This document shows, in pieces, positions 1,822 to 62,242 of a DNA stretch of 64,000 nt; the stretch's first letter is position 1, and each line of letters opens with the position of its first letter. The stretch comes from Defluviicoccus sp. (GTDB taxonomy: Bacteria; Pseudomonadota; Alphaproteobacteria; Rhodospirillales; Defluviicoccaceae). The notes beneath the pieces are model-generated. The model worked only from the letters and a program-made list of their open reading frames with translations. It was not told the origin of the DNA and made no database searches. Position numbers and translations under genes: made by a program. The DNA is taken from positions 186,001 to 250,000 of the forward strand of contig JARSSM010000022.1 of NCBI GenBank assembly GCA_029624735.1, written 5' to 3'.

Positions 1822-3711
1822 TCAAGCCCTCCCCGGCACGGATGGCAGCTCGTGGGCACGCACGAAATGGCCGCCGCCCAGATCCAACAGATGCGGCCGT
1901 GTCGCGCCGTCGTCGGTAAACGGCGCTGGCCAAGCCTCAGGCGTCGAGGCGCGGCCGTCCATCACGGCCGAAAAGTCGAGCCGGCGCTCGGGATCGGGGA
2001 ACGGCACGGCTGCCAAGAGGGTGCGGGTGTAGGGGTGGACCGGATTGCGGAACAGGGCTTCCCGGCCCGCCTCTTCGACGATGCGGCCAAAGCACATCAC
2101 CGCGATCCGCTCCGCCATGTAGTCGACGACCGCAAGATTGTGCGAAATGAACAGGTAGGTGAGCCCCAGTTCGCTCTGCAGGTCCTTGAGCAGGTTCAGG
2201 ATCTGGGCCTGGACCGAGACGTCGAGCGCGGACACCGGCTCATCGCAGATAAGGAGATCCGGCTTTAGCGCAAGCGCTCGCGCAATGCCGATCCGCTGCC
2301 GCTGGCCGCCCGAAAAGCTGTGTGGGTGGCGGCCAACATCGCGCGGGTTCAAGCCAACCAGTTCCATCAGCTCGCGCACCATCTCCCGGCGGTAGGCGGT
2401 ATCGCCGATGCCGTGAATGATCAGCGGCTCGCTCAAGATGTCGTAGACCGTCATGCGCGGGTTGAGTGCGCTGAACGGGTCCTGAAACACGTACTGGATC
2501 TTACGCCGCACGGCCGCCAACGCGTCCGCTGGCAGCCGCGTCAGATCCACCACGCCGTCGCCGGCATCGAACAAGACGGTGCCGTTGTCCGCCCTGACGG
2601 CGCGCAAGATCAGCTTGCTCAAGGTGGATTTGCCGCAGCCGCTCTCCCCCACCAGGCCCAGGCAACTGCCGCGGGCGATGCGGAAACTCACGTCATCGAC
2701 GGCGCGCACGGTGCGTGTGTGCCGGGCGGCGAACAGCCCCGCGCCGCGGCGTGTGGTGAATACCTTGCTGAGATTGCGCACTTCCAGATGCGGCGGTGGC
2801 GGACCTGCGCGCGCTCCGCTGCCGGCCGGCCGGGCCAGGAGATGGCCCTTGCGCTTGCGGATCTCCCGGAGCGGCTTCAGCCGCTCGCCGCGGCGCATGT
2901 CAAAGTGCGGAACCGCGCCCAGCAGCGCCTTGAGGTAGGGATGGCGCGGATCACCGAAGATGTCATCGAGCGCGCCCGCCTCCATCACCCGGCCGCGGTA
3001 CAAGACGACGACCTCCTCGGCCATGTTGGCGACGACGCCGAGGTCGTGCGTGATCAGCAGCAGCGCCATGCCGAACTCAGCGCGCACATCCTGGATCAGT
3101 TTCAGGATCTGCGCCTGGATGGTCACGTCGAGGGCGGTCGTCGGCTCATCGGCAATCAGCACCGCCGGCCGACAGATGAGCGCCATCGCGATCATCGCCC
3201 GCTGGCGCAGGCCGCCGGAGAGCTCGAACGGATAGGTATTGAGCGCGCGCTCCGGTTCCGGAAAGCCGACCAGCCTCAGCATGCGCACCGTCGCGTCAAT
3301 CCGGTCGCGCCGGCTCAGCCGGCTATGCAGCTCAAGCATCTCGCTGACCTGATCGCCGACCGTGTGCAGCGGCGAGAGCGAGGTCATCGGCTCCTGAAAG
3401 ATCATCGAGATGTGGCGGCCGCGGATGCTGCGGTAGGCGGTGCCGGCCGGATCGAGGCCGGTCAGGTCGCTGGGCTCAGCGCCGGTGCGGCCGTCGTCAA
3501 AAAGGATCGAGCCGCTGCGAATGCGGCCGTTGGCCGGCAGGATGCCGAGAATGGCTTGCGCCGTGACCGACTTGCCGGAGCCGGACTCACCCACGAGCGC
3601 CACCGCCGAGCCGGCGTTGAGGCGAAAGCTGATCCCGTCGAGCGCGCGCACGAGACCGCCGCGGGTGTGAAACTCGACCGACAGATCCTCCACCCGCAAC
3701 ACCTCGCCCAT
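1822..3711 (-). CDS. Fused double ATP-binding subunit of an oligopeptide-type ABC importer (YejF/GsiA-like)
   Basis: 629 residues with two complete ABC ATPase domains in tandem, equivalent to DppD plus DppF. Domain 1 has Walker A GESGSGKS at residues 41-48 and signature LSGGLRQR; domain 2 has Walker A GESGCGKS at about 355-362 and signature FSGGQRQR. Both have DEP Walker B boxes ([18 protein letters not shown]). It energises uptake of peptides or similar solutes through the inner membrane with the binding protein encoded immediately downstream. Length is normal for fused ATPases of the YejF/GsiA type. The ATG at 3711 lies 41 bp past the end of the deacetylase-like gene, so it may be read through from the glycosyltransferase cluster or have its own start. 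Confidence 0.93.
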
Positions 3712-3752: not shown

Positions 3753-4502
3753 TCAGCCGAATACCTCGGTGGCGGCGAGCCAGCGGCAGGCGGGATGGGA
3801 ACGCGTCCGGCGCACGAACGCCTCGACGAACTGCCAGCAGCCTTCGTCGTGAAAAAGATGATGCGTCATCAGGCCGGTCGGCTCGTTGGCATCGGCGGTA
3901 CCGGCACGCCGCTGCCGCAAGTGGTCCAGCACCTGCGCCAGCGCTGCTTCGGTGCCGACGAAGCGGCCGCTCTGCCAGTTGACGATATCGACGTGAACGT
4001 TGGCATTGATCAGGCCGGGAACCGTCTCGCGCGCCGGCCGCGGCCCCAGAACCGACAACCCGGTCACGCCCGCGGCCGGTAACGCCGGCACGAAATCGGG
4101 ATCGATGCGGTTCCACGGCGCAACCAGCGCCGGAACATGGCGCGCGAAGGCGCTGACGCGGGCAACACTGCGCCGCAGCTCCGCCAGCATGACCTCGGGC
4201 GGACGGTGCCGTCCGTACTCGTTCTGCCGCTCATCGCCAGGCGCGTGGTTGTCGTGCCCCCAGCCGTGGACGAGCGCACAGCCGTGCGGCTGACCGGCGA
4301 GCCAGGCGACCAGCTGGTCCTCGGCATCGCGCGGGATGACCGCGAGCGCAACCGGCGTATCGGTCGCCCGTGCGAGCGCAAGCGTCCGATCGAGCTCGGG
4401 CGTCACGGTGCGCGCATCGTCGTCGCGCCACCAGAACGTGGCGGTGCGGCCGGCCATTCGCCAGGCATCGAGTTCGTCGTCGATCGCGTTCCAGTCGGGC
4501 AT
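3753..4502 (-). CDS. Polysaccharide deacetylase-like protein
   Basis: About 249 residues from ATG 4502; that start gives no overlap with the upstream gene and sits behind GATAGGGG, whereas an ATG at 4541 would overlap it by 31 bp. The metal-site motif of carbohydrate esterase family 4 is recognisable as WWRDDDAR near the N-terminus, with later histidines in HGWGHDNH and the C-terminal MTHHLFHDE. The barrel-like order (Asp pair, His, LVAPWNR, late His) fits NodB-type deacetylases, but the canonical HSxxH is not exact. Last gene of a five-gene minus-strand run with four glycosyltransferases, so it probably trims N-acetyl groups from the glycan they build. Substrate unknown. Confidence 0.75.
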   Translation of the reverse strand: MPDWNAIDDELDAWRMAGRTATFWWRDDDARTVTPELDRTLALARATDTPVALAVIPRDAEDQLVAWLAGQPHGCALVHGWGHDNHAPGDERQNEYGRHRPPEVMLAELRRSVARVSAFARHVPALVAPWNRIDPDFVPALPAAGVTGLSVLGPRPARETVPGLINANVHVDIVNWQSGRFVGTEAALAQVLDHLRQRRAGTADANEPTGLMTHHLFHDEGCWQFVEAFVRRTRSHPACRWLAATEVFG

Positions 4503-4510
4503 GCTTGCCC

Positions 4511-5674
4511 CTATCCCGCTCGTATTCCGGCGCAAAAGCAAGCCATCGCGCGTGCCGTCGCCTCGGCACCGTGCATGTCTAAGGGCAGGCAGGTGCGATC
4601 TCTTGTCAAGGCTTCGTCGATCGCGGCGGCGAGACGTTTCGGTGACAGATCGTCCGCGGCCACAAGCGTGATGGCGCCGCGTTCAGCCAGGATGCCGGCA
4701 CGGACCCCCTGCTCCGTCTCGGTCGGTGTTGCGAATGGAACCACGACCGCAGGCACGCGCGCCGACAGCACATCCATCATCGTGTTGTAGCCGGCCTGCG
4801 AGATGCAGAGCGCGGCATTGGCGAGCAGCTCCGGCACGTCGTCTCGCCAGCGTTCGATCACCACGCCGTCGGGGCAGGTCCAACGCAGCTCGTCGAAGGC
4901 TCGTTCGGCCAGGTTGGGCCCGGTGAGGAGACGCCAGACGTACCCGGCGGCGCAACTCAATGGCCGCGCTTCGAGCGCCGTCCGCAAGAGCGGCTCACCG
5001 ACGGCGCCGCCACCAACCATGACAACCACCTCGCCACGGCCGGTTTCGCTTGCGTTGCCAGCTTCGACGTCCGCTCCCGCTTCGGCGACATAGCCGGTGT
5101 AGATCAGCTTGTCCGCAATGGCGTCTGCTTCCGGGAACGAGGCGGTGAGCGGGATGAAGTCCGGATCACCATGCACGAGGACATGATCGAAAAATCGCTT
5201 CGCCAAGCCGATGATCGCGTGGTTGCGCTGCGGCTCGGCCTTCCTGATCAGGACGTCGCGGACCGAGGAGACGATGCAAGGGCGGTCCGGCCGCGCCCAG
5301 GCCTCCTGCAGCAAGGGCAGGAGTTCGAACCGGAACTGGCCGCGGCCAAACGGAAACATCTCGATCAGGAGCGCTCGCGGCTGGATTGCGTCGAACTCCT
5401 GCAGCAACCGCGCTGCACGCCGGTCGCGAAAGGCGTCGTCGATCGGCAGGCCGTTGGTATCGACCAGGGTCGAGAACGTCGCATCCAGCGTCCTCACCGC
5501 AGGAAGGAGGACCCGGCTGCAGCCATCGAAGGTGATGCCCGGTACCGGCGCGCCGCCGAGTACAACCGTGACGTCGAGACCGGCCGTCCGCAGGGCCGCG
5601 GCAATCAGCGAGGCACGCTTGACATGGCCAACGCCGAGCAGACTTTGCACATAGTAAAGGACACGCTTGCTCAC
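4511..5674 (-). CDS. MurG/GT28-like glycosyltransferase
   Basis: 387 residues, two Rossmann halves (GT-B fold). N-terminal MSKRVLYYVQSLLGVGHVKR is the acceptor-side glycine loop; the C-terminal half carries SQAGYNTMMDVL followed by PAVVVPF and TETEQGVRA, the nucleotide-sugar binding part of GT28/UDP-GlcNAc transferases. No membrane segments are evident. Its start overlaps the stop of the next gene upstream by 4 bp (ATGA), so it is translationally coupled. It resembles the gene at 8086-9318 in motif order but differs clearly in sequence, so the two are divergent paralogues placed at either side of two GT4 genes. Donor and acceptor unknown. Confidence 0.82.
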   Translation of the reverse strand: MSKRVLYYVQSLLGVGHVKRASLIAAALRTAGLDVTVVLGGAPVPGITFDGCSRVLLPAVRTLDATFSTLVDTNGLPIDDAFRDRRAARLLQEFDAIQPRALLIEMFPFGRGQFRFELLPLLQEAWARPDRPCIVSSVRDVLIRKAEPQRNHAIIGLAKRFFDHVLVHGDPDFIPLTASFPEADAIADKLIYTGYVAEAGADVEAGNASETGRGEVVVMVGGGAVGEPLLRTALEARPLSCAAGYVWRLLTGPNLAERAFDELRWTCPDGVVIERWRDDVPELLANAALCISQAGYNTMMDVLSARVPAVVVPFATPTETEQGVRAGILAERGAITLVAADDLSPKRLAAAIDEALTRDRTCLPLDMHGAEATARAMACFCAGIRAG

Positions 5675-6828
5675 CCGCCGGTTTTCCTGGTTGCCACGAG
5701 CGGCGTCAAGAACTTGTCGAGCGCGCGCGCAGCCGCATCGAGACTGTGGTGCTCGCCCACCGCGCGGGCGGCCTGCTGGCCGAGGAGCCGGCGCTCGTCC
5801 CCATTGTCGATCAGACGGGCAACGGCCTGGGCAAATGCGGCCGCATCAGCCACCGGCACCAGGAGGCCGGTCTCGCCGTCGGAGACGATATCGCCGACAC
5901 CACCGGTCAGGCCGGCGACCACCGGGACGCCGGCGGCTTGCGCTTCCAGGAGCACCATGCCGTAGGCCTCGCCGATCGCTGGCCAGACGTAGATGTCGGC
6001 GACCGGATACAACCGCGCGAGCGCATCTGGCTCGTAGGCGCCGAGCCAATGGACCCGCGGGCCGAGGTCGGCAAAGGCGGCCAGCACCTCTTCACGCGCC
6101 GGCCCGTCGCCTGCGATCAGGAGCTGCCAGCGACGCGCGGTTAGGTGTCCGAGAGCCTGCGCAAGAAGGCGGTAGGAGGCGAGCTTCGCGCCCGGCCGCA
6201 TCATCGCCACCGTGAGCAGCAGCACCGTACCGGCATCGAAGCCAAGGCTGTGCGCGAGCGATTGGCGGTGCGCCGCCGCTTCGGCCACGCCCACGCGCGC
6301 GCGCGCGGGATCGACGAACGGCGCCAGCGGCGCCCAGCGGGCCGGCGAGCGAAGGAGCGGCAGCACGCAGGCCCGGTCGGCCGTGTTGAGCCCGAGAACC
6401 AGATCGGCGGCGGCCAAGGCGGTGCGGGTGGCGGTACAGCCTTGCGCCCAGGGGCCCCTCTCCTGCTTGGGAGCGTAGGACGCCTCCGCGACGACATAGG
6501 GGATGCCGAGCGCATCGCTGACCGGCGGCCCAAGCCAGTCCGGCGCCTTGTGGTAGAGGTGATAGGTGAACCATAGCTGCGGCCGCAGGGATGGCGGTCG
6601 CAGCCGGTAGCGGCGAATGAGGGCGTTTGCGAGCCGCGCGCCCAGCCGCGCCAGGCGTTGCTGGCGATTGGGTTCGCCCGCGCCTTCGAAGCTCCGCATG
6701 CGGCTGGCGAGTTCGACCGTGTGCCCGGCCCGCTGCAGCGCAAGCCACAACAATCGCGCCATCGTCCGGTCGCCGGACGGCACCGGATCGTCGGGGGCCT
6801 TCAGGGGTGCGTAGAAGGCGATGCGCAT
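5671..6828 (-). CDS. GT4-family glycosyltransferase
   Basis: 385 residues with N-terminal MRIAFYAPLKAPDDPVPSGD (acceptor-domain start with a glycine/aspartate loop) and a C-terminal Glycos_transf_1 domain: LLIAGDGPAREEV, then ADIYVWPAIGEAYGMVLLE, which holds the E-x7-E donor-binding motif (GEAYGMVLLE). It should transfer a hexose or similar sugar from a nucleotide sugar in the cytoplasm. The start lies 28 bp inside the end of the preceding GT4 gene and its stop overlaps the next start, so it is central to one operon. Family assignment is firm; sugar specificity is not readable. Confidence 0.87.
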   Translation of the reverse strand: MRIAFYAPLKAPDDPVPSGDRTMARLLWLALQRAGHTVELASRMRSFEGAGEPNRQQRLARLGARLANALIRRYRLRPPSLRPQLWFTYHLYHKAPDWLGPPVSDALGIPYVVAEASYAPKQERGPWAQGCTATRTALAAADLVLGLNTADRACVLPLLRSPARWAPLAPFVDPARARVGVAEAAAHRQSLAHSLGFDAGTVLLLTVAMMRPGAKLASYRLLAQALGHLTARRWQLLIAGDGPAREEVLAAFADLGPRVHWLGAYEPDALARLYPVADIYVWPAIGEAYGMVLLEAQAAGVPVVAGLTGGVGDIVSDGETGLLVPVADAAAFAQAVARLIDNGDERRLLGQQAARAVGEHHSLDAAARALDKFLTPLVATRKTGG

Positions 6829-8150
6829 GGCACGCTCCGGGCGGCAACGGCGGGGCGGAACCGCGCATTCAAGCGCTCGATCGCCGCCCCAAAGGAGAAG
6901 TCCGTGCGCACCCGGGCGAGGCCGGCGAGACCAAGCCGCTGACGCTCATCGGGCGCCGCAATAAGCCGGCCGATCGCTTCTGCCAAGGCAACGGTGTCGT
7001 CGGGCGGAACGAGGAGGCCGGTCTCCCCGCTTACAATCAGCTCCGGGATCGCCGAAATGGTGGTCGAGACGCAGGGCAGCCGCTGGCTCTGCGCCTCCAT
7101 GAGGACATTGGGCAGGCCGTCGCGATCACCGTCGGCGGCGATGCGGCACGCCAGCACGAAAATGTCCGCTTCCCGATATGCCTGCAACACGTCGTCGTGG
7201 CTGCGCGGCCCCCGCCACTCGATCCGCTCCGCAAGGCCAAGGGCCTGCGCCATTGCCTTGAGGTTCTTCAAGAGCGGTCCGCCGCCGATGTGAACAAGCC
7301 GCCAGCAGCTAGAAGCCGGCAAGGCCGCGAGCGCGTGTAACAGAACATCGTAGCCCTTCTTTTCGACCGCGCGGCCGATTGAGAGCAGGCGCACCGGATC
7401 GCTCGGATCCGATCCGTCCCGGCGCCGGAAGCACGATGCAGGGCTTGGCAGTGCGGCGAACGCATGCAGATCGATGCCGTGATAGAGAAGCTCGACCGGC
7501 CGCTGCGGTGCCGCAAGCGTGCGCAGGTATGCGGCATTGCAGGCAGTGCAGGTGACGAGCCATTCACACGCAGCCAGTTTCTCGCGGATTTCCCATTCCG
7601 GCGTCGTCCAGACGTCCTTGGCGTGCGCCGAGACGCTCCATGGCAGCCCTGAGAGCATGGCCGCATAGCGGGTGACCGAGGCCGGCGTGTGCAGAAAGTG
7701 AGCGTGCAGCCACGTCACGTCCGCCGGCAGTTCGTGCGCCAGCACAATGGCCTGACCGAAGCGCCGCACGCGGTTGCGGGACGGATCACGCCTCAGATCG
7801 CGCAACCAAGCGGTGCGGGCGTGCTGATAGCGTGGCCAGCGCCGAACCGTGCGCCACGCCTGCCAGACCCGGAGGGGAGCGTGGTGGAGGTACTCGGGCA
7901 GGTAAACGACCGGCGCCTGGATGCGCCGATGCACCGGATGCACGGCCGCATCGGTCGGGTGGCGGAGCGAGAACAGGCGGAGATCGAGGCCGCCGCGCTC
8001 GAGTGCCAGGATCTCGTTGGCAATGAAGGTTTCCGAGAGGCGCGGATAGCCCTTGAGAATGACAGCGACGACCGGCGCCGCAGTCTCAGGGGACCTGGGC
8101 ACCTGCGGACAGCCGCGGCTGCTCAACAACGGGAGCACCAAGCCACGCAT
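6801..8150 (-). CDS. GT4-family glycosyltransferase (colanic-acid-type)
   Basis: About 449 residues from ATG 8150; GTG 8102 is an equally possible start, because the conserved N-terminal strand VVAVILKGYPRLSETFIANE begins just after it and the ATG start overlaps the upstream gene by 65 bp. The frame stays open upstream to 8276 but that extension lies within the preceding gene. KGYPRLSETFI is typical of WcaL/AmsK-type GT4 enzymes; the donor motif is RDGLPNVLMEAQ with the conserved glutamate, followed by PCVSTTISAIPELI. Part of the five-gene glycan run on the minus strand. Confidence 0.86.
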   Translation of the reverse strand: MRGLVLPLLSSRGCPQVPRSPETAAPVVAVILKGYPRLSETFIANEILALERGGLDLRLFSLRHPTDAAVHPVHRRIQAPVVYLPEYLHHAPLRVWQAWRTVRRWPRYQHARTAWLRDLRRDPSRNRVRRFGQAIVLAHELPADVTWLHAHFLHTPASVTRYAAMLSGLPWSVSAHAKDVWTTPEWEIREKLAACEWLVTCTACNAAYLRTLAAPQRPVELLYHGIDLHAFAALPSPASCFRRRDGSDPSDPVRLLSIGRAVEKKGYDVLLHALAALPASSCWRLVHIGGGPLLKNLKAMAQALGLAERIEWRGPRSHDDVLQAYREADIFVLACRIAADGDRDGLPNVLMEAQSQRLPCVSTTISAIPELIVSGETGLLVPPDDTVALAEAIGRLIAAPDERQRLGLAGLARVRTDFSFGAAIERLNARFRPAVAARSVPCASPSTHP

Positions 8151-9318
8151 CGACGAGGCGATTGATCGCCGGCAGCCCCTCCAACAGACCGTGGATGCGG
8201 ATTTCCGACGGCTTGCGCTGATGCGGCAGGCTGCGCAAGAGGGCCGCCATCGCCTGCGGCTGGCGGCGCCCGTCACCTGCCATCATACGCACAAGGCCGA
8301 GGCTGCTGGCGCGCTCGGCGCGGATATACTGCTCCATCCGCGGCGCGGTTCGCGGCACCAGGAGCGCCGGCTTATCGAACGACAGGATCTCGCAAAACGT
8401 ATTGTACCCGCCCATCGCGACGACGCCGGCTGCGGCGGCCATCAGGTCTTCCATTTTCGGCTCGAAGGTGATGGTTTCCACCGCCGGCAGGCGGGCGGCC
8501 CGTTCGATGAATCCGCCCTGCTCAGCGGACCGCATGAACGGCCCGAGCACGAGAAGCGCCGGATAGGGGATGCCGGGGTCCGCCTCGTAGGCCCGCAAGA
8601 CCCAATCGATCAGGAGCGCGCCGTCGCCGCCGCCGCCGGTCGTCACCAGAATGAAGGGCTCGCGCGGCATCGGCACGGGACGGCCAGCAACGCTCTCCGT
8701 CCCGGTGGTCGATCGGCGCAGATAGCCGGTGTAGTGAACCTTGGCGAGCGTCGAGGCGGGCAGCGCAATACCCTCGAGCGCGTTACAGATCTGCGGCAGC
8801 CCATAGACCCAGATGCTGTCGTAAAGATCGATCAGCGCCGGCGCCGCGTTCTTGCGCTCCCACTCCTCGGCCAACTGCGCCGGCTCGTCCATCACGTCGC
8901 GCAGGCCGAGAACGAGTCCCGCCCCCCGCGCCTTCAGCATGGTGAGCGTGTCCTTGACCTCGCCGCGCAGACCGAGCGGCTCCTTATCGACGAGGAAAAT
9001 GTCCGGACGGAAGGCTTCCGCCGTGCGGCGGATGATTTCGGCGCGGATGCCGAGCGTCTCCTCGATGCCGATATCGAGGTTGAGCGGCATGTAGTCGCCG
9101 TGCTGGAGCTTGATGATGCCGGGGATGCGGACAAAGTCGACCCGGTGGCAAAAGCTGAAGTTGCCAATAATAGGCGAGCCGGACAGAATGAGAACCGTCA
9201 GGTCGCGGCGGTGTTCGGCGAGGGCATGCGCAATCGTCTGGCACCGGCGCAAATGGCCGAGGCCAAAGCTGTCGTGGCTGTAGATCAAGACCCGGGAGTG
9301 TCCGTGATGCTCGCCCAT
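8086..9318 (-). CDS. MurG/GT28-like glycosyltransferase
   Basis: 410 residues, first gene of the glycan cluster. N-terminal RVLIYSHDSFGLGHLRRCQT is a glycine-rich acceptor loop; the C-terminal half has VVAMGGYNTFCEILSFDKPALLVP, the GT28 donor-binding signature (GGYNT...E), followed by QYIRAERASSLG. No signal peptide or transmembrane segment. ILVTTGGGGDGALLIDW is the linker strand of the second Rossmann domain. The promoter should lie in the 180-bp gap to the divergent ABC gene at 9499. Together with the paralogue at 4511-5674 it brackets two GT4 genes, suggesting a repeating-unit or glycolipid assembly line. Confidence 0.83.
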   Translation of the reverse strand: MGEHHGHSRVLIYSHDSFGLGHLRRCQTIAHALAEHRRDLTVLILSGSPIIGNFSFCHRVDFVRIPGIIKLQHGDYMPLNLDIGIEETLGIRAEIIRRTAEAFRPDIFLVDKEPLGLRGEVKDTLTMLKARGAGLVLGLRDVMDEPAQLAEEWERKNAAPALIDLYDSIWVYGLPQICNALEGIALPASTLAKVHYTGYLRRSTTGTESVAGRPVPMPREPFILVTTGGGGDGALLIDWVLRAYEADPGIPYPALLVLGPFMRSAEQGGFIERAARLPAVETITFEPKMEDLMAAAAGVVAMGGYNTFCEILSFDKPALLVPRTAPRMEQYIRAERASSLGLVRMMAGDGRRQPQAMAALLRSLPHQRKPSEIRIHGLLEGLPAINRLVDAWLGAPVVEQPRLSAGAQVP

Positions 9319-9498: not shown

Positions 9499-12147
9499 AT
9501 GGAAGCAACGTTTTTCAAGTACATCATAAAACATAGCTGGCGCCAGCAGACGGCGTTGCTGGTCATAACTATATTGTCGTTTCCATTCCTGTATTATTCT
9601 CTTGAGTTGCCAAAGTTGATTATCAATAAGGCAATAGGGTCAAGCGATTTCCCGAGAAATATTCTTGGCTACGAATTTGCGCAAATCGAGTTCCTGGCGG
9701 CACTATGTCTTGTATTTTTGTTGCTGGTCGGAGTCAATGGAGCTTTCAAATACATCATAAATGTATACAAGGGACGCCTCGGCGAGCGCATGTTGCGCCG
9801 TTTGCGCTATCAATTGTTCGGTAATGCGCTGAGGTTTCCGCTGCACCGCTTCCGCCGCGTTTCCCAAGGCGAACTAGTTGCCATGATTACCTCCGAGGTA
9901 GAACCACTCGGCGGGTTCATCGGCGATGCGATCGCCCTGCCTGCCTTCCAGGGCGGGACCTTGCTGACCATCCTGGTTTTCATGTTCATCCAGGATCCGG
10001 TGCTTGGCGCAGCCGCCATCGCGCTCTATCCGCTGCAGATGTACGTGATTCCGAAGCTGCAGCGCCAAGTCAATGCGCTTGCCAAAGAGCGCGTGCGCAC
10101 GGTACGGCGGCTGTCGGAGCGGATCGGCGAGACCGTGACCGTGATCGAAGAAATCCGGGTCCACGACACCGCTGAACTGCACCGGGCCGAGTTCGCAGCA
10201 TTGCTGGGCCAAATTTATGAGATCCGCTTCAAGATCTATAAGAAAAAGTTTCTCATCAAGTTTCTCAATAACTTTATTGCGCAGCTAACGCCGTTCTTCT
10301 TCTTTTCGATCGGCGGCTATCTGGTTATCCAGGGAGACCTCACGTTCGGCGCCCTCGTCGCCGTGCTTGCCGCCTACAAGGACCTGTCGTCGCCCTGGAA
10401 GGAGCTGCTCGACTGGTATCAGATCCGCGAGGACAGCCGGATCAAGTACGACCAGCTACGCGAGCAGTTCGAGTTCCCGGACATGCTGGCGGAAGAACCG
10501 CTGACAGCCGCCGAGGGCACACCCGACCCGCTTGCAGGGCCAATCGAAGCCCTCAACCTGAGCGTCGAGGAAGAAGGTGGCGTCAAGCTGCTCGACGGCG
10601 CAAGCTTCCGCTTCGATCTCGGCGAGAAGGTCGGCTTTGCCGGCGGCAGCAGCTCCGGCGCCAGTACGGCCGCACGGGTGCTGGCGCGCCTCACCACGCC
10701 CAGTGCGGGGACGGTGCGGATCGGCGAGAACAACCTTGGGCAGTTGAGCGCCGCCGTTATCGGCCGGCGCATGGCTTATGTCGGCCCGAGCGCAACCCTC
10801 GTTCAAGGCACCCTGCGTGACAACCTCTTTTACGGGTTGAAGCACAAGCCGCTCTCGAGCGCGGAGCTTGGCAACGGCTTTGACCGGCAGGAAGCGGAGC
10901 GGACGGGCAACACGACCAGCCATCCGGCAGCCGACTGGATCGACTACGAAGCGGCCGGAGCGGCCGACACGACCGCGCTCGTTCAGCGCGCGATCGAGGT
11001 CTTGAAGTGGGTCGATCTCGAAGAGGATACATTCGATTTCGGGCTCAAGGGCACCATCAGCACCCGCGAACATGCGGCGCTTGCGCATCTGATCCTCGAG
11101 GCCCGCAAGGTTCTGCGGCATCGGCTTGAGGAACCGCGCTTCAAGGACCTGGTCGAGCCGTTCGAACGCGATAAGCTGAACCGAAACATGTCCGTCGCCG
11201 AGAACATCTTGTTCGGCCGGCCGGTCGGCGAGGTCTTCGGCTTGGACCGGATCGGCGACAATCCCTACATGCGTCAGATCCTCGATCAGGTCGGCTTGAC
11301 CGACGACTTCAGGCGCATGGGCTATCAGGTCGCCACCATCATGGTCGACCTGTTCGAGGGCCTGCCGCCTGGGCATGCGCTGTTCGAGCGCTTCAGCTTC
11401 ATCGACAGCACGACCTTGCCGGAACTGAAGGCGTTGCTGCCCGGGGTCGAGGCGGCCGGCATCGAGGCCGCCGAGCCGGCCGACGTCGCCCGCTTGATGG
11501 CGCTCCCATTTCAATTGATCCCGGCCCGCCACCGGCTCGGCATCGGGCTTTTGAGCGAGCAGATGGAGCGGCGCCTGCTCGATGCCCGGCACGCCTTTGC
11601 CGCCAACCTGCCCGCACAATACCGCAGTGCGATCGCCTTTTTTCAGGACGACGCCTTCAACACCGCCGCGACCATTCAGGACAACATCCTGTTCGGCAAG
11701 CTCGTCTACGGCCGCCAGCAGAGCCCGCGCGAGATCGGCGCCTTGATCGCCGAAGTCATCGGCGCGCTCGAGCTGCGCCGGCCGATCATCGAGGTCGGCC
11801 TTGATTTCGAGGTCGGCATCGGCGGCGGGAGGCTGTCGGCCTCGCAGCGGCAACGGCTGGCGCTCGCCCGCGCCCTGATTAAGCGCCCCGATATCCTGAT
11901 CCTGGATCGGGCAACCGCAGCCCTCGATCACCGCTCCCAGGCGACGGTGCGGGCAGCGCTTTCGGGCGACCCGGCACACAAAGGCGTTGTCTGGGTCGTC
12001 GACGATACCGACTCCGCCGGCACGCTCAACCGCATCATCCGCTTCGAGAGCGGCAGCGTGATCGAGGACACGCCATTGACGGAGAGACCGCCAACGCCTG
12101 CGGTCGAACCGGCAGCAGACCAAACGGTTGCCCCGATGTCGCGCTGA
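9499..12147 (+). CDS. Atypical ABC exporter with degenerate, expanded nucleotide-binding domain
   Basis: 882 residues. Residues about 1-330 form an ABC exporter membrane domain with several hydrophobic helices (LLVITILSFPFLYYSL, FLAALCLVFLLLVGV, FFFFSIGGYLVI) and a long cytosolic helix with LSERIGETVTVIEEIRV. The NBD is degenerate. Walker A is G382-GSSS-GAS (residues 382-389), with Ala388 in place of the lysine. The signature is LSASQ (779-783). Walker B is ILILD803 followed by Arg804 instead of the catalytic Glu. The H-loop histidine is replaced by Asp (VWVVDDTD). Walker A and signature are about 390 residues apart (normally about 100), and the 'NILFG' helix after the Q-loop occurs three times (about 439, 566, 726). 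Probably non-hydrolysing or regulatory; no frameshift or stop is present. Confidence 0.85.
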   Translation: MEATFFKYIIKHSWRQQTALLVITILSFPFLYYSLELPKLIINKAIGSSDFPRNILGYEFAQIEFLAALCLVFLLLVGVNGAFKYIINVYKGRLGERMLRRLRYQLFGNALRFPLHRFRRVSQGELVAMITSEVEPLGGFIGDAIALPAFQGGTLLTILVFMFIQDPVLGAAAIALYPLQMYVIPKLQRQVNALAKERVRTVRRLSERIGETVTVIEEIRVHDTAELHRAEFAALLGQIYEIRFKIYKKKFLIKFLNNFIAQLTPFFFFSIGGYLVIQGDLTFGALVAVLAAYKDLSSPWKELLDWYQIREDSRIKYDQLREQFEFPDMLAEEPLTAAEGTPDPLAGPIEALNLSVEEEGGVKLLDGASFRFDLGEKVGFAGGSSSGASTAARVLARLTTPSAGTVRIGENNLGQLSAAVIGRRMAYVGPSATLVQGTLRDNLFYGLKHKPLSSAELGNGFDRQEAERTGNTTSHPAADWIDYEAAGAADTTALVQRAIEVLKWVDLEEDTFDFGLKGTISTREHAALAHLILEARKVLRHRLEEPRFKDLVEPFERDKLNRNMSVAENILFGRPVGEVFGLDRIGDNPYMRQILDQVGLTDDFRRMGYQVATIMVDLFEGLPPGHALFERFSFIDSTTLPELKALLPGVEAAGIEAAEPADVARLMALPFQLIPARHRLGIGLLSEQMERRLLDARHAFAANLPAQYRSAIAFFQDDAFNTAATIQDNILFGKLVYGRQQSPREIGALIAEVIGALELRRPIIEVGLDFEVGIGGGRLSASQRQRLALARALIKRPDILILDRATAALDHRSQATVRAALSGDPAHKGVVWVVDDTDSAGTLNRIIRFESGSVIEDTPLTERPPTPAVEPAADQTVAPMSR

Positions 12148-12170: not shown

Positions 12171-12653
12171 GTGCAGTATGCCGAGGCCTTTGCGGTAATC
12201 CGGCGGATCCCGATCTTCCGGGCGCTCAGCCCGGGGGACCAGAAGCTCCTTGCCTTTTCCAGCGCCTATCTCGTGTTCGAAGCGGGCGAGGCCCTGTTTC
12301 ACGAGGGCGATCCGACCGACAGCGCATACCTGGTCGATGATGGACTGGTCGAAGTGTGCCTGCATCGGGGCACCGAGGAGATCGTCCTGGGGCAGCTGGG
12401 GAAGAACGAACTGGTCGGCGAGATGGGGATCATCCGCAATTCGCCGCGCTCGGCGACGGTCCGCGCGGTCGGCACGGTCAAGGTGCTGCGGATCGACGCC
12501 GACGTGTTCCTGCACGCGGTCACCAGCAACCCGGACGCCGCGCTCGGCGTGATGCGCCACCTGAGCGACAAGATCGCGGCCATTACGCAACGTTATGAAG
12601 CCATCAAGCGGCACGCGAGCGGCTGGGAGATGCCTGAGATCGTCGAGTGTTGA
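12171..12653 (+). CDS. Stand-alone cyclic nucleotide-binding domain protein
   Basis: 160 residues from GTG 12171, 23 bp after the ABC gene. A single CAP-type cNMP-binding beta-roll: FEAGEALFHEGDPTDSAYLV, then the phosphate-binding cassette LVGEMGIIRNSPRSATVRA with the conserved Glu and Arg that contact cyclic-nucleotide ribose and phosphate. No DNA-binding helix-turn-helix follows; the C-terminus is a short helix (RHLSDKIAAITQRYEAIKR). It is therefore more likely a sensory partner of a protein (the ABC exporter or a glycosyltransferase) than a transcription factor. Co-directional and nearly contiguous with the ABC gene, so probably co-transcribed. Confidence 0.85.
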   Translation: MQYAEAFAVIRRIPIFRALSPGDQKLLAFSSAYLVFEAGEALFHEGDPTDSAYLVDDGLVEVCLHRGTEEIVLGQLGKNELVGEMGIIRNSPRSATVRAVGTVKVLRIDADVFLHAVTSNPDAALGVMRHLSDKIAAITQRYEAIKRHASGWEMPEIVEC

Positions 12654-13074: not shown

Positions 13075-14073
13075 ATGCTAAAGCCCCCCTATGTGCTCTT
13101 TGTCGGCGATGCCCGCGATCAACTTGCGGCCAAGACGGCTGTCGGCGTCCAATACTGGCGACCGCAGCTGTGCATCGGCCAGATCCGCCTTGACGGCTGC
13201 CGGGCCAGCCTTGAGCTGCCGGTCATGACAGTCGCCGATGCTTGCGCTGCGGGCGCCCGGACGCTGATCGTCGGTCTCGCCAACGCCGGCGGCACCATCT
13301 CCGAGAGCTGGCTGCCAACGTTGACCGAAGCGCTCGCGGCCGGCCTCGACCTTTCGAGCGGCCTGCATCAGCGGCTGACGGACATCCCATCGCTGTGTGC
13401 CGCGGCAGCGGCATCCGGACGCAAGCTGATTGATGTCCGCCATCCGCACCAGACCTTCGCGGTCGGCACCGGCGCCCGGCGGTCGGGGCGGCGGCTGCTC
13501 ACCGTCGGTACCGATTGCTCCGTCGGCAAGATGTACACGGCGCTTGCGATCGAACGGGAACTGCAGCGGCGCGGCTTCGCCGCCGATTTCCGAGCCACCG
13601 GCCAGACCGGCATCTTTATCGCCGGCGCCGGCGTTTCCATCGATGCCGTTGTCGCCGATTTCATTTCCGGCGCCGTCGAGGAGCTGGCGCCTGCGAATGC
13701 GCCCGATCACTGGGACGTCATCGAGGGCCAGGGATCGTTGTTCCACCCGTCCTTCGCCGGCGTCAGTCTGGGCCTTCTGCACGGCGCCCAGGCCGACGCA
13801 CTCGTGATGTGCCACGAACCGACGCGGACGCACATGCGCGGCCTGCCGCACCAGCCGATGCCGGCGCTGAACCACTGCATTGCCGCCAACGAAGCCGCCG
13901 CGCGGTTAACCCAGCCCGATGCGCGCTGCATCGGCGTCGCCGTCAACACCAGCGGCCTGACCGCGGCAGCCGCAGCGGACACGCTTGAACGGCTCGCCGA
14001 TGCGAGCGGTCTCCCCTGCGTCGATCCGGTCGCGGGCAGTGTTGCGCCGCTGGTGGAGCGCCTACTCACGTGA
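13075..14073 (+). CDS. dgcN: DUF1611 protein, D-glutamate N-acetyltransferase DgcN
   Basis: 332 residues with the DUF1611 layout: N-terminal domain, then a P-loop-like GTDCSVGKMYTALAI at about residues 143-157, then FRATGQTGIFIAG and VIEGQGSLFHPSF. Members were long 'unknown'; in marine proteobacteria DgcN has been described as N-acetylating D-glutamate, which the partner DgcA then racemises to N-acetyl-L-glutamate. The next gene is exactly that partner and overlaps by 4 bp (GTGA), giving a translationally coupled pair. A dgcR-type regulator is not seen next to it. Family and pairing are solid; the specific substrate is inferred from the described pathway. Confidence 0.8.
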   Translation: MLKPPYVLFVGDARDQLAAKTAVGVQYWRPQLCIGQIRLDGCRASLELPVMTVADACAAGARTLIVGLANAGGTISESWLPTLTEALAAGLDLSSGLHQRLTDIPSLCAAAAASGRKLIDVRHPHQTFAVGTGARRSGRRLLTVGTDCSVGKMYTALAIERELQRRGFAADFRATGQTGIFIAGAGVSIDAVVADFISGAVEELAPANAPDHWDVIEGQGSLFHPSFAGVSLGLLHGAQADALVMCHEPTRTHMRGLPHQPMPALNHCIAANEAAARLTQPDARCIGVAVNTSGLTAAAAADTLERLADASGLPCVDPVAGSVAPLVERLLT

Positions 14074-15053
14074 CCCGCTCGCTGCGCGCCTGGGCGGAGA
14101 CCTGGCCACTCGCTCGGCCGTTCGCGATCTCCCGCGGAACCAAGACGCAAGCGCACGTGATCATCTGCGTGGTCGAGGGCGACGGCTGCATCGGCCGCGG
14201 CGAGTGCGTTCCTTATGGCCGCTACGGCGAAAGCACAGGTTCCGTCCTTGCCAGCATTCGTGAAGCCGCTCCCGCCATCGCTGCCGGCCTGGATCGCCCC
14301 GGCCTGTTGGAGCGGATGCCAGCGGGTGCGGCACGCAACGCCATCGACTGTGCGCTGTTCGACTGGGAAGCGAAGGTGCAACGCCGCCCGGCCTGGGACA
14401 TCGCTGGCGTGGCTGCGCCGACGGAGCAGACGACGGCTGAAACCATCGGCCTTGGCGATGTCGAGGCGATGGCGCGCACCGCGCGGGCGCTGAGCGATCG
14501 GCCACTCCTGAAAGTGAAGGTCGGACGCGACGACGTGATGGCCCGCGTCGCTGCGGTCCGACGCGAGGCGCCGCGCGCAAGCCTGATCGTCGATGCCAAC
14601 GAGGCGTGGGACCGGCAGACGCTCGACACGGTCTGCCAGCCGTTAGCCGATCTGGGCGTGGAGATGATCGAGCAGCCGCTTCCAGCCGCCGAGGACGACG
14701 CTTTGGCCGGCTACAGCGGTCTCGTGCCGCTGTGTGCAGATGAGTCCTTTCACACCGCAGCCGACATGGAGCGCCTGAAGCCCCTCTATCGGATCATGAA
14801 CATCAAGCTCGACAAGGCGGGGGGATTGACCGCCGCACTGGCGTTGGCGCGGGCGGTGCGCGCCGCGGGCTTGGAGGTCATGATCGGCTGCATGGTCGCA
14901 ACATCGCTGGCCATCGCGCCGGCTCTGCTGCTCGGCACGCTCGCAAAGGTGATCGACCTCGACGGCCCGCTATGGCTGGCACGCGACCGTACGCCGAGCC
15001 TTTCCATCCGCGCCGGCCGGATCCCCCCACCGCCGGCCGCGTTGTGGGGCTGA
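14070..15053 (+). CDS. dgcA: Enolase-superfamily racemase/epimerase DgcA (N-acetyl-D-Glu racemase / dipeptide epimerase)
   Basis: 327 residues from GTG 14070. Enolase superfamily, muconate-lactonizing subgroup: catalytic lysine pair LLKVKVG, Mg ligands in LIVDANEAW, EMIEQPLP and CADESFH, and the second catalytic lysine in MNIKLDKAGGL. All catalytic elements are present. Formerly annotated as L-Ala-D/L-Glu epimerase; coupling to dgcN favours the N-acetyl-glutamate racemase role in D-glutamate catabolism. Ends 56 bp before the convergent methyltransferase gene. Confidence 0.85.
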   Translation: MTRSLRAWAETWPLARPFAISRGTKTQAHVIICVVEGDGCIGRGECVPYGRYGESTGSVLASIREAAPAIAAGLDRPGLLERMPAGAARNAIDCALFDWEAKVQRRPAWDIAGVAAPTEQTTAETIGLGDVEAMARTARALSDRPLLKVKVGRDDVMARVAAVRREAPRASLIVDANEAWDRQTLDTVCQPLADLGVEMIEQPLPAAEDDALAGYSGLVPLCADESFHTAADMERLKPLYRIMNIKLDKAGGLTAALALARAVRAAGLEVMIGCMVATSLAIAPALLLGTLAKVIDLDGPLWLARDRTPSLSIRAGRIPPPPAALWG

Positions 15054-59721: not shown

Positions 59722-60966
59722 TCAAGCGAGGGTGAAGATCTCCATTGGCTGGCTGATCCCGCGCAGCGCGTGCTGGCCCAGCGAGGTGAGCCGGTCGCCG
59801 GCAGCGCCGGGGCGGACCAGGCCGGCGAACGCCGCCGAGAACAGAAGCGGCCGCCCCAACGTTCGGCACAGCCCCTCGATCCGCGCGGCTTCGTTGGTTG
59901 CCGAGCCGATGACGGTAAAGGCAAGCCGCTTCGGCGTCCCGATGTTGCCGTACATCACGTCGCCCAGATGCAGGGCGATGCCGAAGCCAAGCGATGGCAG
60001 ACCGGCCGCAGCCCGCTCCATGTTCAGCGCATCGATGCGGCCGATCGCATCGAGGGCGGCTTCGAGCGCGCGGGCAGCAACCGCTTGATGCTGCGGGCAA
60101 TCCTCGCAGGGGCCACGCGCGCCGGCGACGGGGAAAATCGCAAGCGCGCCGTCACCGATAAAGCTCAAGACCTCGCCCTGATGCTCGATGATGGCGCCGG
60201 CCATGGCGTCGAAGAACGCGTTCAGGATCGCGAGGTAGTCCCGGCGCGGCAGGGTGTCCGCCAACGCCGTCGATCCACGCAGATCGCAGAACCAGATGAC
60301 GGCGTGGATCTCCTCGCCATCGCCGCGGCGGATGAGGCCCTTCAGCACCTGCTCGCCGGTCTGCGGGCCGAGGTAGGTCTCGAGAATCGCCGTCGCTGAA
60401 AGGCGCAGCGTGTGCAGTTCATAGAGATGGGCGAGCATGGGCAGGGCTTCGTCCAGGCGCTCAAGCTCGGCCGAACCGAAGCCGCCCGGCTGGTCGGACG
60501 TGACCGTCAAGGCGCTGATCCGGCCGTCGCTGAAGCGTAGCGGCATGGCAACGTAATCGGTCCCGCCCTGCTCCTTGAGATCGAGCAGCACCGGGTAGTC
60601 AAGGGCAGCGGCCGGTCCTTCCAGGCGGCGGCGAATGGCGCCCGCGCCCTCGAACAGCGCCGCGTACGGGCTCTTGATGAAGCGTTCCTCCTGCACGATC
60701 GAATGCTGCGGCAGGAGCGTCTCCACGGCATCACTGCCGCGCTGCCACAGGTAGCTCGCGCCCAGGTACTGCGGATGCAAGGTGCGGATGAGAACGCGCA
60801 GGCGGAACAGTCGAATGCCGGCCGCGATAAGGCAGTTCCCCAGCCCCGCCGTCAATGCTTCGGGTGTGGCGATCTCCCAGCCCTCGGTCAGCGCCCAGGC
60901 GACAACGGGGTTGGGTGAAATCGGCCGCAGCGGAAACGTCAGCGGCGGGGCGGCGGGCAGATCCAT
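59722..60966 (-). CDS. Class III adenylate/guanylate cyclase
   Basis: 414 residues from ATG 60966; the frame is open to 61122 but that would overlap the divergent M20 gene. N-terminal 200 residues are a GAF-like sensor region without transmembrane helices. Catalytic domain: metal Asp in VIWFCDLRGSTALAD, second in SFIGDGALAIFP, LGFGIALHLGDVMYGNIGTPKRLAFTVIG, and NEAARIEGL with the transition-state Asn and Arg. All catalytic residues are present, so it should make cAMP in the cytosol. Confidence 0.92.
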   Translation of the reverse strand: MDLPAAPPLTFPLRPISPNPVVAWALTEGWEIATPEALTAGLGNCLIAAGIRLFRLRVLIRTLHPQYLGASYLWQRGSDAVETLLPQHSIVQEERFIKSPYAALFEGAGAIRRRLEGPAAALDYPVLLDLKEQGGTDYVAMPLRFSDGRISALTVTSDQPGGFGSAELERLDEALPMLAHLYELHTLRLSATAILETYLGPQTGEQVLKGLIRRGDGEEIHAVIWFCDLRGSTALADTLPRRDYLAILNAFFDAMAGAIIEHQGEVLSFIGDGALAIFPVAGARGPCEDCPQHQAVAARALEAALDAIGRIDALNMERAAAGLPSLGFGIALHLGDVMYGNIGTPKRLAFTVIGSATNEAARIEGLCRTLGRPLLFSAAFAGLVRPGAAGDRLTSLGQHALRGISQPMEIFTLA

Positions 60967-61081
60967 CGGTGCAGTCGTGACGGACAGACGAGCTGTGTGC
61001 ACACAGGGATTAACGGCCCTGGCACAGCGCTTTCGCCACATTATGTAACAGCAGGGAACGGTCTCGGAAAGGGATGCAGCG

Positions 61082-62242
61082 ATGCCGGTCGAAGACGGGA
61101 TTGCGGCACTGAAGCCCGACATGACGGACTGGCGGCGGTACTTGCATGCCCACGCCGAAACCGCCTTTCAGGAGCGTGAGACGGCAGCCTTCGTCGCAGC
61201 CCGGTTGCGAGAGTTCGGCATCGAGGTGCATGAAGGTCTGGCCGGGACCGGTGTCGTCGGCACGCTCCGCAACGGCGACGGCCCCGCGATCGGCCTGCGC
61301 GCGGATCTCGACGGCTTGCCGATTGCGGAAGAGACAGGACTCCCCTACGCGTCGAAGCACGCTGGCCGCATGCATGCCTGCGGCCACGACGGCCATACCG
61401 CGATGCTGCTGGGCGCCGCACGCTACCTTGCGCAAACGCGCCGCTTTGCCGGCACTGTTCATTTCATCTTTCAGCCGGCGGAGGAAAACGAGGGCGGCGC
61501 CCGGGTGATGATCGAACAGGGGCTGTTCGAGCGCTTTCCCGTCCGCCAGGTCTTCGGCATGCACAACTGGCCAGCCATGCCGGCCGGCCATTTCGCGGTG
61601 CGGGCCGGGCCGATGATGGCGGCGTGCGACACCTTCGAAATCACGGTCAGCGGTACGGGCTGCCACGGGGCAATGCCGCACTTCGGCTTCGACGCGATCG
61701 TGGCGGCGGCTGCCCTCGTCTCCACCCTGCAGACGATCGTGAGCCGCGCCGTCGATCCACTGGAGGCGGCGGTGGTTTCGGTCACGCAGATTCACGCCGG
61801 CGATACCTGGAACGTCCTGCCAGCGCGTGCGGTGCTGAAGGGGACGATCCGCAGCTTCCAGCCGGCTGTGCGCGCGCGGATCGAAGCCGCCCTGAAGCGC
61901 ATTGCCGAAGGAACGGCGGCCGCCCATGGCTGTCGCGCCGACGTGCACAACCTCAGGCATTATCCGGCAACGGTGAACGCCGACGCTGAAACCGAGCTGG
62001 CGGCCGCGGTGGCCGAGCGGGTTGTCGGTAAGGAGCGCGTCATCCGCAATCCGCCGCCAACCACGGGCTCGGAAGACTTTGCCTTCATGCTGCAGGCGAC
62101 ACCCGGCTGCTACATCTGGATCGGCAGCGGGCGGGGAAAAGAGGATCCGTCCCTGCATAGCCCGCACTACGACTTCAATGACGATATTTTGCCCGTAGGA
62201 GCCAGCTATTGGGCAAAGCTGGTCGAAACGGGCCTTGCCTGA
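61082..62242 (+). CDS. M20 family amidohydrolase (hippurate hydrolase-like)
   Basis: 386 residues, RBS AAAGGGA. Zinc ligands: ADLDGLPIAEETGLPYASKHAGRMHACGHDGH (Cys and His), PAEENEGGARVMIE (Glu), VFGMHNWPAMPAGHFA (His) and LHSPHYDFND (His). HipO/IAA-amino acid hydrolase branch; cleaves N-acyl amino acids such as hippurate, N-acetyl amino acids or IAA conjugates. Specificity not readable. Divergent from the cyclase gene. Confidence 0.93.
   Translation: MPVEDGIAALKPDMTDWRRYLHAHAETAFQERETAAFVAARLREFGIEVHEGLAGTGVVGTLRNGDGPAIGLRADLDGLPIAEETGLPYASKHAGRMHACGHDGHTAMLLGAARYLAQTRRFAGTVHFIFQPAEENEGGARVMIEQGLFERFPVRQVFGMHNWPAMPAGHFAVRAGPMMAACDTFEITVSGTGCHGAMPHFGFDAIVAAAALVSTLQTIVSRAVDPLEAAVVSVTQIHAGDTWNVLPARAVLKGTIRSFQPAVRARIEAALKRIAEGTAAAHGCRADVHNLRHYPATVNADAETELAAAVAERVVGKERVIRNPPPTTGSEDFAFMLQATPGCYIWIGSGRGKEDPSLHSPHYDFNDDILPVGASYWAKLVETGLA

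Follow-up and report, generated by a model that had tools for sequence, protein, structure and literature searches.

The 64,000-nucleotide stretch of DNA analysed here (the window; Defluviicoccus sp., assembly GCA_029624735.1, contig JARSSM010000022.1, positions 186,001 to 250,000) encodes at 9499-12147 on the plus strand an open reading frame (ORF) of 882 codons, whose translation is free of internal stops. In a Pfam search, the ABC_membrane domain (PF00664) was found at residues 64-291 of the 882-residue protein (E 1.6e-23), whereas ABC_tran was broken into two stretches (E 7e-18). The AlphaFold2 model had a mean predicted local distance difference test score (pLDDT) of 81, with values mostly around 90 in the region of the nucleotide-binding domain (NBD). 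When the chain was compared with the PDB by Foldseek, type IV exporters (MsbA, PCAT1, TmrAB and P-glycoprotein) were matched with probability 1.0. The ORF has the fold of an ATP-binding cassette (ABC) exporter, and its membrane domain presumably works as a homodimer. From its motifs, the NBD is almost certainly non-catalytic, and the protein and its relatives are called pseudo-ABC in the following. The gene, the parts of its product and the cyclic-nucleotide (cNMP)-binding protein encoded behind it are:

9499-12147, plus strand: pseudo-ABC exporter, 882 residues (open frame and translation; Pfam; AlphaFold2; Foldseek)
9499-10488, plus strand: transmembrane domain (TMD), residues 1-330, the most constrained part (ratio of nonsynonymous to synonymous substitution rates, dN/dS, 0.03)
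10564-10575, plus strand: A-loop region, residues 356-359, no aromatic residue (family alignment)
10642-10668, plus strand: degenerate Walker A, residues 382-390, GGSSSGAST, with Lys replaced by Ala388 (motif reading)
11833-11847, plus strand: degenerate signature LSASQ, residues 779-783 (motif reading)
11893-11910, plus strand: degenerate Walker B ILILDR, residues 799-804, with D803 kept and Glu replaced by Arg804 (motif reading)
11983-12012, plus strand: H-loop region, residues 829-838, WVVDDTD, no His, Asp at 835/836 (motif reading)
12171-12653, plus strand: stand-alone cNMP-binding protein, 160 residues (Pfam PF00027, E 4e-22)

An original prediction, made from the sequence of the window, had described an ABC exporter with three dead catalytic motifs. 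Ala388, Arg804, the H-loop Asp, the retained Walker B Asp and the LSxSQ signature were all read as it had claimed. The three dead motifs were correct and the loss was understated, as the A-loop aromatic residue, the Q-loop Gln (replaced by P430) and the LSGGQ form of the signature are also gone. Two of seven canonical ATPase elements are kept. The window protein combines the PF00664 TMD with an NBD fold, as active type IV exporters do, and lacks their Walker A Lys, Walker B Glu, H-loop His and A-loop aromatic residue. Because these defining residues were tested and are absent, we place pseudo-ABC outside the active ABC exporters; that it is not an ATPase is, from the motifs, highly probable.

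The loss is not confined to the window copy. At E <= 1e-60, 67 of 150 related genomes and 97 of 289 genomes across the class Alphaproteobacteria contain the same architecture. Of 398 genomes drawn from the whole phylum, 30 gave a match at E <= 1e-40; 29 of these belong to the same class, and the sole match outside it (genome G542) was a protein without an NBD. A scan of named genomes confirmed at least 531 relatives, the best 80 of which include loci of Azospirillum, Skermanella, Nisaea, Tistrella, Inquilinus, Sneathiella and Defluviicoccus. Matches were also present in 344 plasmid records, mainly of Rhizobium and Sinorhizobium; some of these, on roseobacter and Defluviicoccus vanus plasmids, cover the membrane domain only. 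The pseudo-ABC family is widespread in Alphaproteobacteria and undescribed. In the open-access literature we found no description of ATPase-dead ABC exporters with cNMP domains and, as had been predicted, no characterised protein of this layout (subscription journals lay mostly outside the search).

For a motif census, 106 members less than 90% identical to one another were scored for seven elements: Walker A Lys, Walker A Ser/Thr, Q-loop Gln, LSxGQ, Walker B Asp, Walker B Glu and H-loop His. No member had all seven, the maximum was five (three members), and most retained one to three. The Walker A Lys position was K in 60 members, R in 28, A in 6 and other residues in the rest. Walker A Ser/Thr was retained in 14 members, with Asp/Glu instead in 71, and Walker B Asp in 19, with Asn instead in 64; these two were the commonest losses. 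H-loop His was kept in 41/106 and the D-loop Asp in 101/106, and an acidic pair at 358/359 near the A-loop was nearly invariant. In the window protein the signature reads LSASQ versus LSGGQ, and its L (105/106), S (82/106) and Q (103/106) are mostly retained across the family. Ala388 and Arg804 are not common to the homologues, as each member has lost a different subset of motifs. Since none of the 106 keeps all seven elements, a normal ATPase cycle would be beyond the reach of the whole family, as predicted for the window copy. Nearly all annotated full-length copies are named ABC transporter ATP-binding or transmembrane domain-containing proteins, and the name "ABC transporter ATP-binding protein" is misleading.

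The NBD is also rebuilt. The distance from Walker A to the signature, predicted to be about 390 residues, is 391; in canonical exporters it is about 100. The NBD is expanded by about 250 residues, and the helix motif that follows the Q-loop occurs three times, as had been noticed, in copies that are related by comparison of hidden Markov models (HMM-HMM):

10750-11142, plus strand: repeat copy 1, residues 418-548, with RDNLFYG at 440-446 (HMM-HMM comparison)
11125-11607, plus strand: repeat copy 2, residues 543-703, with AENILFG at 567-573 (HMM-HMM comparison; model of the copy alone)
11596-11898, plus strand: repeat copy 3, residues 700-800, with QDNILFG at 727-733, running into the signature helix (HMM-HMM comparison)

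The E values were 2.7e-11 between copies 2 and 3, 2.8e-5 between copies 1 and 2 and 7e-5 between copies 1 and 3. For a control, 30 HMM-HMM comparisons were made with segments of the TMD, the best of which gave E 0.02. The xDN/xEN-ILFG repeats are beyond chance, because the values between the copies are well below that of the best control. Copy 2 modelled alone was all-helical (pLDDT 88.8); it had no match in Pfam and none in a fold search of the PDB at E <= 0.001. As the copies match one another, a foreign domain in the insert was rejected. The repeats of the predicted insert are therefore real, and the insert, judged by these comparisons, is a tandem triplication of a segment that is ordinarily present in a single copy between Q-loop and signature. 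Within the duplicated stretches E568, N569, R677 and H678 are invariant.

Against a sibling with 95% identity, dN/dS was 0.03 in the TMD, 0.12 in the first half of the NBD, 0.17 in the insert and 0.20 in the second half of the NBD. Purifying selection acts on every segment and is strongest on the membrane domain; the protein is maintained, as had been proposed. That the gene is merely a decaying copy would account for the degenerate motifs, but purifying selection in each segment, hundreds of open homologues with identical architecture and the family-wide degeneracy leave this explanation next to no probability; a frameshift was rejected on the open frame, the dN/dS values and the family survey. 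Intact homologues beside a single decaying copy, which would have spoken against the original prediction, were not seen among the 106 members.

The predicted tie to the adjacent cNMP-binding protein was followed in a neighbourhood survey of 81 loci. A cNMP gene lies downstream of pseudo-ABC in 68 of them, with a median gap of 36 bp, and in 9 of the 13 loci without a separate gene pseudo-ABC is itself extended by a C-terminal part. The phosphate-binding cassette of the 160-residue protein, GEMGIIRNSPRSATVRA (residues 83-99; GE...PRSAT), has the Glu and the Arg expected of a cNMP domain, and the separate proteins of the family likewise keep it intact (Glu in 65 of 68 homologues, Arg in 68 of 68). 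Its best sequence matches in the PDB include protein kinase A (PKA) regulatory subunits and a cyclic-nucleotide-gated (CNG) channel domain of Mesorhizobium. The cassette pattern was also present in 20 of the 22 pseudo-ABC members of at least 1000 residues; one long member run through Pfam (locus L037, 1498-5118) has at its C-terminal end a cNMP domain and, behind it, a GGDEF-like domain. From this gene order, pseudo-ABC is very likely coupled functionally to the cNMP protein. The linkage is the strongest functional clue, and the pseudo-NBD would work with a cyclic-nucleotide receiver.

C-terminal fusions of a cNMP and a GGDEF-family domain are seen in L033 and L039 as in L037. The GGDEF motif of all three looks degenerate (for example DDLEF), and the fusions may carry a second pseudo-enzyme module. 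Six class III cyclases are encoded in the genome of the window, one of them inside the window at 59722-61122. Cyclase genes were found within the fetched stretch at 17 of 93 loci, and the pseudo-ABC cluster itself includes a cyclase gene in Sinorhizobium, Rhizobium and Mesorhizobium. On the Mesorhizobium plasmid pWSM1497 (L203), the 31 kb around the pseudo-ABC/cNMP pair hold four adenylate/guanylate cyclase genes and a DUF3095 gene.

The genome of the window also encodes two membrane-domain-only paralogues of 417 and 434 residues (L002 and L003). In a tree, 11 NBD-less proteins formed one clade (support 100/100), and full-length and NBD-less forms were jointly separated from the canonical exporters (support 100/99); the base of the tree, with the canonical outgroups on very long branches, leaves undecided whether the NBD-less forms arose within or beside the full-length ones. 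In the NBD-less proteins the coupling-helix stretches, which full-length members keep, are deleted or shortened and the other conserved TMD positions are kept, among them K294-D295 at the break in the last TM helix. They have an extra N-terminal hydrophobic segment with histidines. Because this clade keeps the rest of the TMD, the pseudo-ABC membrane domain can persist without an ATPase. A CopA multicopper oxidase stands beside the NBD-less gene in 11 of 12 loci, usually together with CopB and a cupredoxin, and this linkage was found in none of the 93 full-length loci. The NBD-less proteins are candidates for copper-related membrane proteins.

The NBD-less loci are L002:1459-2709, L003:1219-2520, L174:11773-13077, L177:10946-12208, L187-L195 and L208; their genes adjoin CopA/CopB/cupredoxin or, in Defluviicoccus, DUF305, and several are on conjugative plasmids. 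In the genus g35 (L199, L200), genomes with full-length members of 1059-1087 residues also have, within a copper island, a paralogue that lacks the NBD. A further membrane-domain-only protein of 314 residues (L198:7013-7954), about 29% identical to the window protein and without the extra N-terminal segment, branches outside the pseudo-ABC family, and an NBD gene adjoining it was not evident.

Upstream of the pseudo-ABC gene and on the opposite strand the window holds a glycan cluster and a gene of a peptide importer set:

8086-9318, minus strand: glycosyltransferase, GT28_C/MurG-like, divergent from the pseudo-ABC gene (Pfam PF04101; family also present near pseudo-ABC in 70/81 loci)
6801-8276, minus strand: glycosyltransferase group 1, GT4-like (Pfam; conserved neighbour in 69/81 loci)
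5671-6828, minus strand: glycosyltransferase group 1, GT4-like (Pfam; conserved neighbour)
4511-5674, minus strand: glycosyltransferase, GT28_C/MurG-like (Pfam PF04101; conserved neighbour)
3753-4541, minus strand: member of a neighbour family that elsewhere bears the annotation polysaccharide deacetylase family (close to pseudo-ABC in 45/81 loci)
1822-3711, minus strand: peptide-importer-type double ABC ATPase (Pfam ABC_tran twice and oligo_HPY; neighbour in 51/81 loci)

The deacetylase annotation is carried by a Shinella relative of the 3753-4541 protein, which had no match in Pfam itself. The motifs of the ATPase at 1822-3711 look intact, and it belongs to a conserved peptide ABC importer set. 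In a second count over 93 full-length loci, glycosyltransferases (GT28_C/MurG-like and group 1) were found beside 77, a histidine-phosphatase relative in 59 and a polysaccharide-deacetylase relative in 51. A Sulfitobacter plasmid has a compact island of nucleotide sugar dehydrogenase, glycosyltransferases, phosphatase, deacetylase and pseudo-ABC. Since no alternative flippase or exporter is evident in the glycan cluster, pseudo-ABC is the natural candidate for moving its product.

Pseudo-ABC was then compared with known systems. With the type IV (MsbA/ABCB-like) exporters it has the PF00664 TMD and recognisable NBD halves in common; it differs in the lost catalytic motifs and the enlarged NBD, and the MsbA model TIGR02203 gave 178.8 bits against a cut-off of 602. 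SbmA has an exporter-type membrane domain that is proton-driven and lacks an NBD, and in the published view SbmA-like secondary transporters arose from full ABC exporters by loss of the NBD and the coupling helices (PMC13316013). The SbmA-like transporters (SLiPT; SbmA/BacA) thus resemble pseudo-ABC in having an exporter-type TMD without a working ATPase, and the NBD-less paralogues are like SbmA in the lost NBD and coupling-helix stretches and the added N-terminal segment (PMC13316013). Further marks of the SLiPT group are a glutamate ladder and proton coupling. In contrast to SbmA, full-length pseudo-ABC retains a pseudo-NBD tied to a cNMP domain. As the Pfam listings of family proteins contained no SbmA/BacA family match, and as NBD and coupling helices are present in the window protein, we place pseudo-ABC outside the SbmA family. 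In conclusion, it is neither an active ABC exporter nor an SbmA-family member, and its working mode may be like that of SbmA.

NHLP-type ABC exporters and their associated cNMP proteins (TIGR03797, TIGR03896) likewise link an exporter with a cNMP-binding domain, and the NBDs there are intact. Both models matched only weakly (121 against a cut-off of 709 and 39 against 161, respectively). S. meliloti MsbA2 (SMb21191) is an ABC exporter homologue encoded in a glycosyltransferase operon of pSymB (PMC3687685, PMC12239276). Identity with MsbA2 was rejected by position, as the pseudo-ABC relative of strain 1021 lies at pSymB 841723-844432 and no relative was found in the 930-980 kb region, which holds the msbA2 operon (its first gene, SMb21188, is at about 938 kb). 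The 1021 relative (NC_003078) spans 2710 bases; in strain 2011 (NC_020560, 841727-844435) it spans 2709, as in other strains, and the extra base of the 1021 record may reflect an indel or a difference in sequencing.

We infer transport, its substrate and energy source, the oligomeric state, the docking of the NBD and the direction of gating as follows. The original prediction of a non-hydrolysing transporter or flippase, perhaps gated by the adjacent cNMP protein, is supported in part, namely in the dead ATPase domain, the maintained protein and the functional tie to the cNMP protein. A type IV exporter membrane domain would carry an NBD that is past ATP hydrolysis and owes its present form to tandem triplication of the stretch behind the Q-loop. 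The pseudo-NBD would sit on the coupling helices and either regulate as a lever or provide a platform for docking. The downstream or fused cNMP protein would bind cyclic nucleotide and open or close the membrane domain via the pseudo-NBD. The membrane domain would then move, flip or pass a lipid- or phosphate-linked glycan from the adjacent glycosyltransferase cluster, in an ATP-independent manner, by facilitation or, like SbmA, by coupling to the membrane potential. Taken as a whole chain, this ATP-independent, cyclic-nucleotide-gated exporter or flippase for the cluster glycan has, in our estimate, an even chance of being right. Several observations weigh against it. Three members keep five of the seven elements, and the conservation of L-S-x-x-Q is higher than expected for an NBD without any role of the nucleotide site. 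Some roseobacter members (Ruegeria) lack an adjoining glycosyltransferase cluster.

The constant linkage to a cNMP domain, sometimes with a degenerate GGDEF-like domain, the equally constant linkage to glycosyltransferases and the lost ATPase would also suit a non-transporting membrane receptor or scaffold, in which the exporter fold, as a conformational sensor, would arrange the neighbouring glycosyltransferases or switch them. We regard this as unlikely. The TMD is the most conserved part and its invariant charges are kept in NBD-less paralogues, which fits a transport path better than an anchor, and the cluster glycosyltransferases look soluble with no other exporter or flippase evident.

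Two other explanations draw their best argument from the retained L-S-x-x-Q signature. Pseudo-ABC might be the degenerate half of a heterodimer that lends its signature to an active half-exporter encoded elsewhere, as L-S-x-x-Q and the D-loop Asp are kept while Walker A/B and the H-loop are lost. A precedent exists in exporters with one degenerate and one canonical site, and in Pdr5 NBS1 is altered in all motifs (PMC7756269). In TM287/288, TAP and Pdr5 one NBD has lost Walker A, Walker B, H-loop and signature residues as in pseudo-ABC, but it pairs with a canonical NBD, whereas pseudo-ABC has no linked partner and its NBD is structurally rebuilt. No half-exporter is a conserved neighbour in the 81 loci (a distant partner is possible), the linked ABC genes are the peptide importer set, the 391-residue spacing would shift the signature helix, and the NBD-less branch cannot operate in this way; the heterodimer is therefore improbable. 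A non-canonical ATP binding or hydrolysis with residues from the duplicated stretches could draw on the invariant E568, N569, R677 and H678 and on the Walker A Lys of 60/106 members. This is very improbable, as the Asp/Glu at the Walker A Ser/Thr position in 71/106 members and the acidic A-loop would repel the nucleotide and the window copy has no Walker A Lys.

Movement driven by ATP is what defines ABC transporters. A large, conserved family that keeps the ABC architecture without catalytic residues and with a cNMP sensor is a natural test of NBD roles beyond hydrolysis, and full-length pseudo-NBD and NBD-less forms coexist in one family and even in one genome. A wider and rather doubtful extension of the gated flippase is that the family has abandoned ATP class-wide: its members would be cNMP-gated flippases driven by membrane potential or a gradient, the NBD would have become a ligand-relay module through its tandem triplication, and the NBD-less sister branch would have been recruited to copper resistance. 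If true, this would be a second independent route, beside SbmA, from primary to secondary transport with an intermediate stage still living. Members occur in bacteria that are amenable to genetics (S. meliloti, on pSymB, Rhizobium and Azospirillum, with NBD-less forms in Phaeobacter), and the function is testable there.

A promoter scan around the pseudo-ABC gene gave nothing above chance. A defence system was rejected, as the PADLOC matches are generic to ABC ATPases and cNMP domains. Further downstream, the window encodes a DUF1611 protein at 13075-14073, followed at 14070-15053 by an enolase-superfamily-like protein that by eye is dipeptide epimerase-like; this pair is apparently a separate downstream operon.

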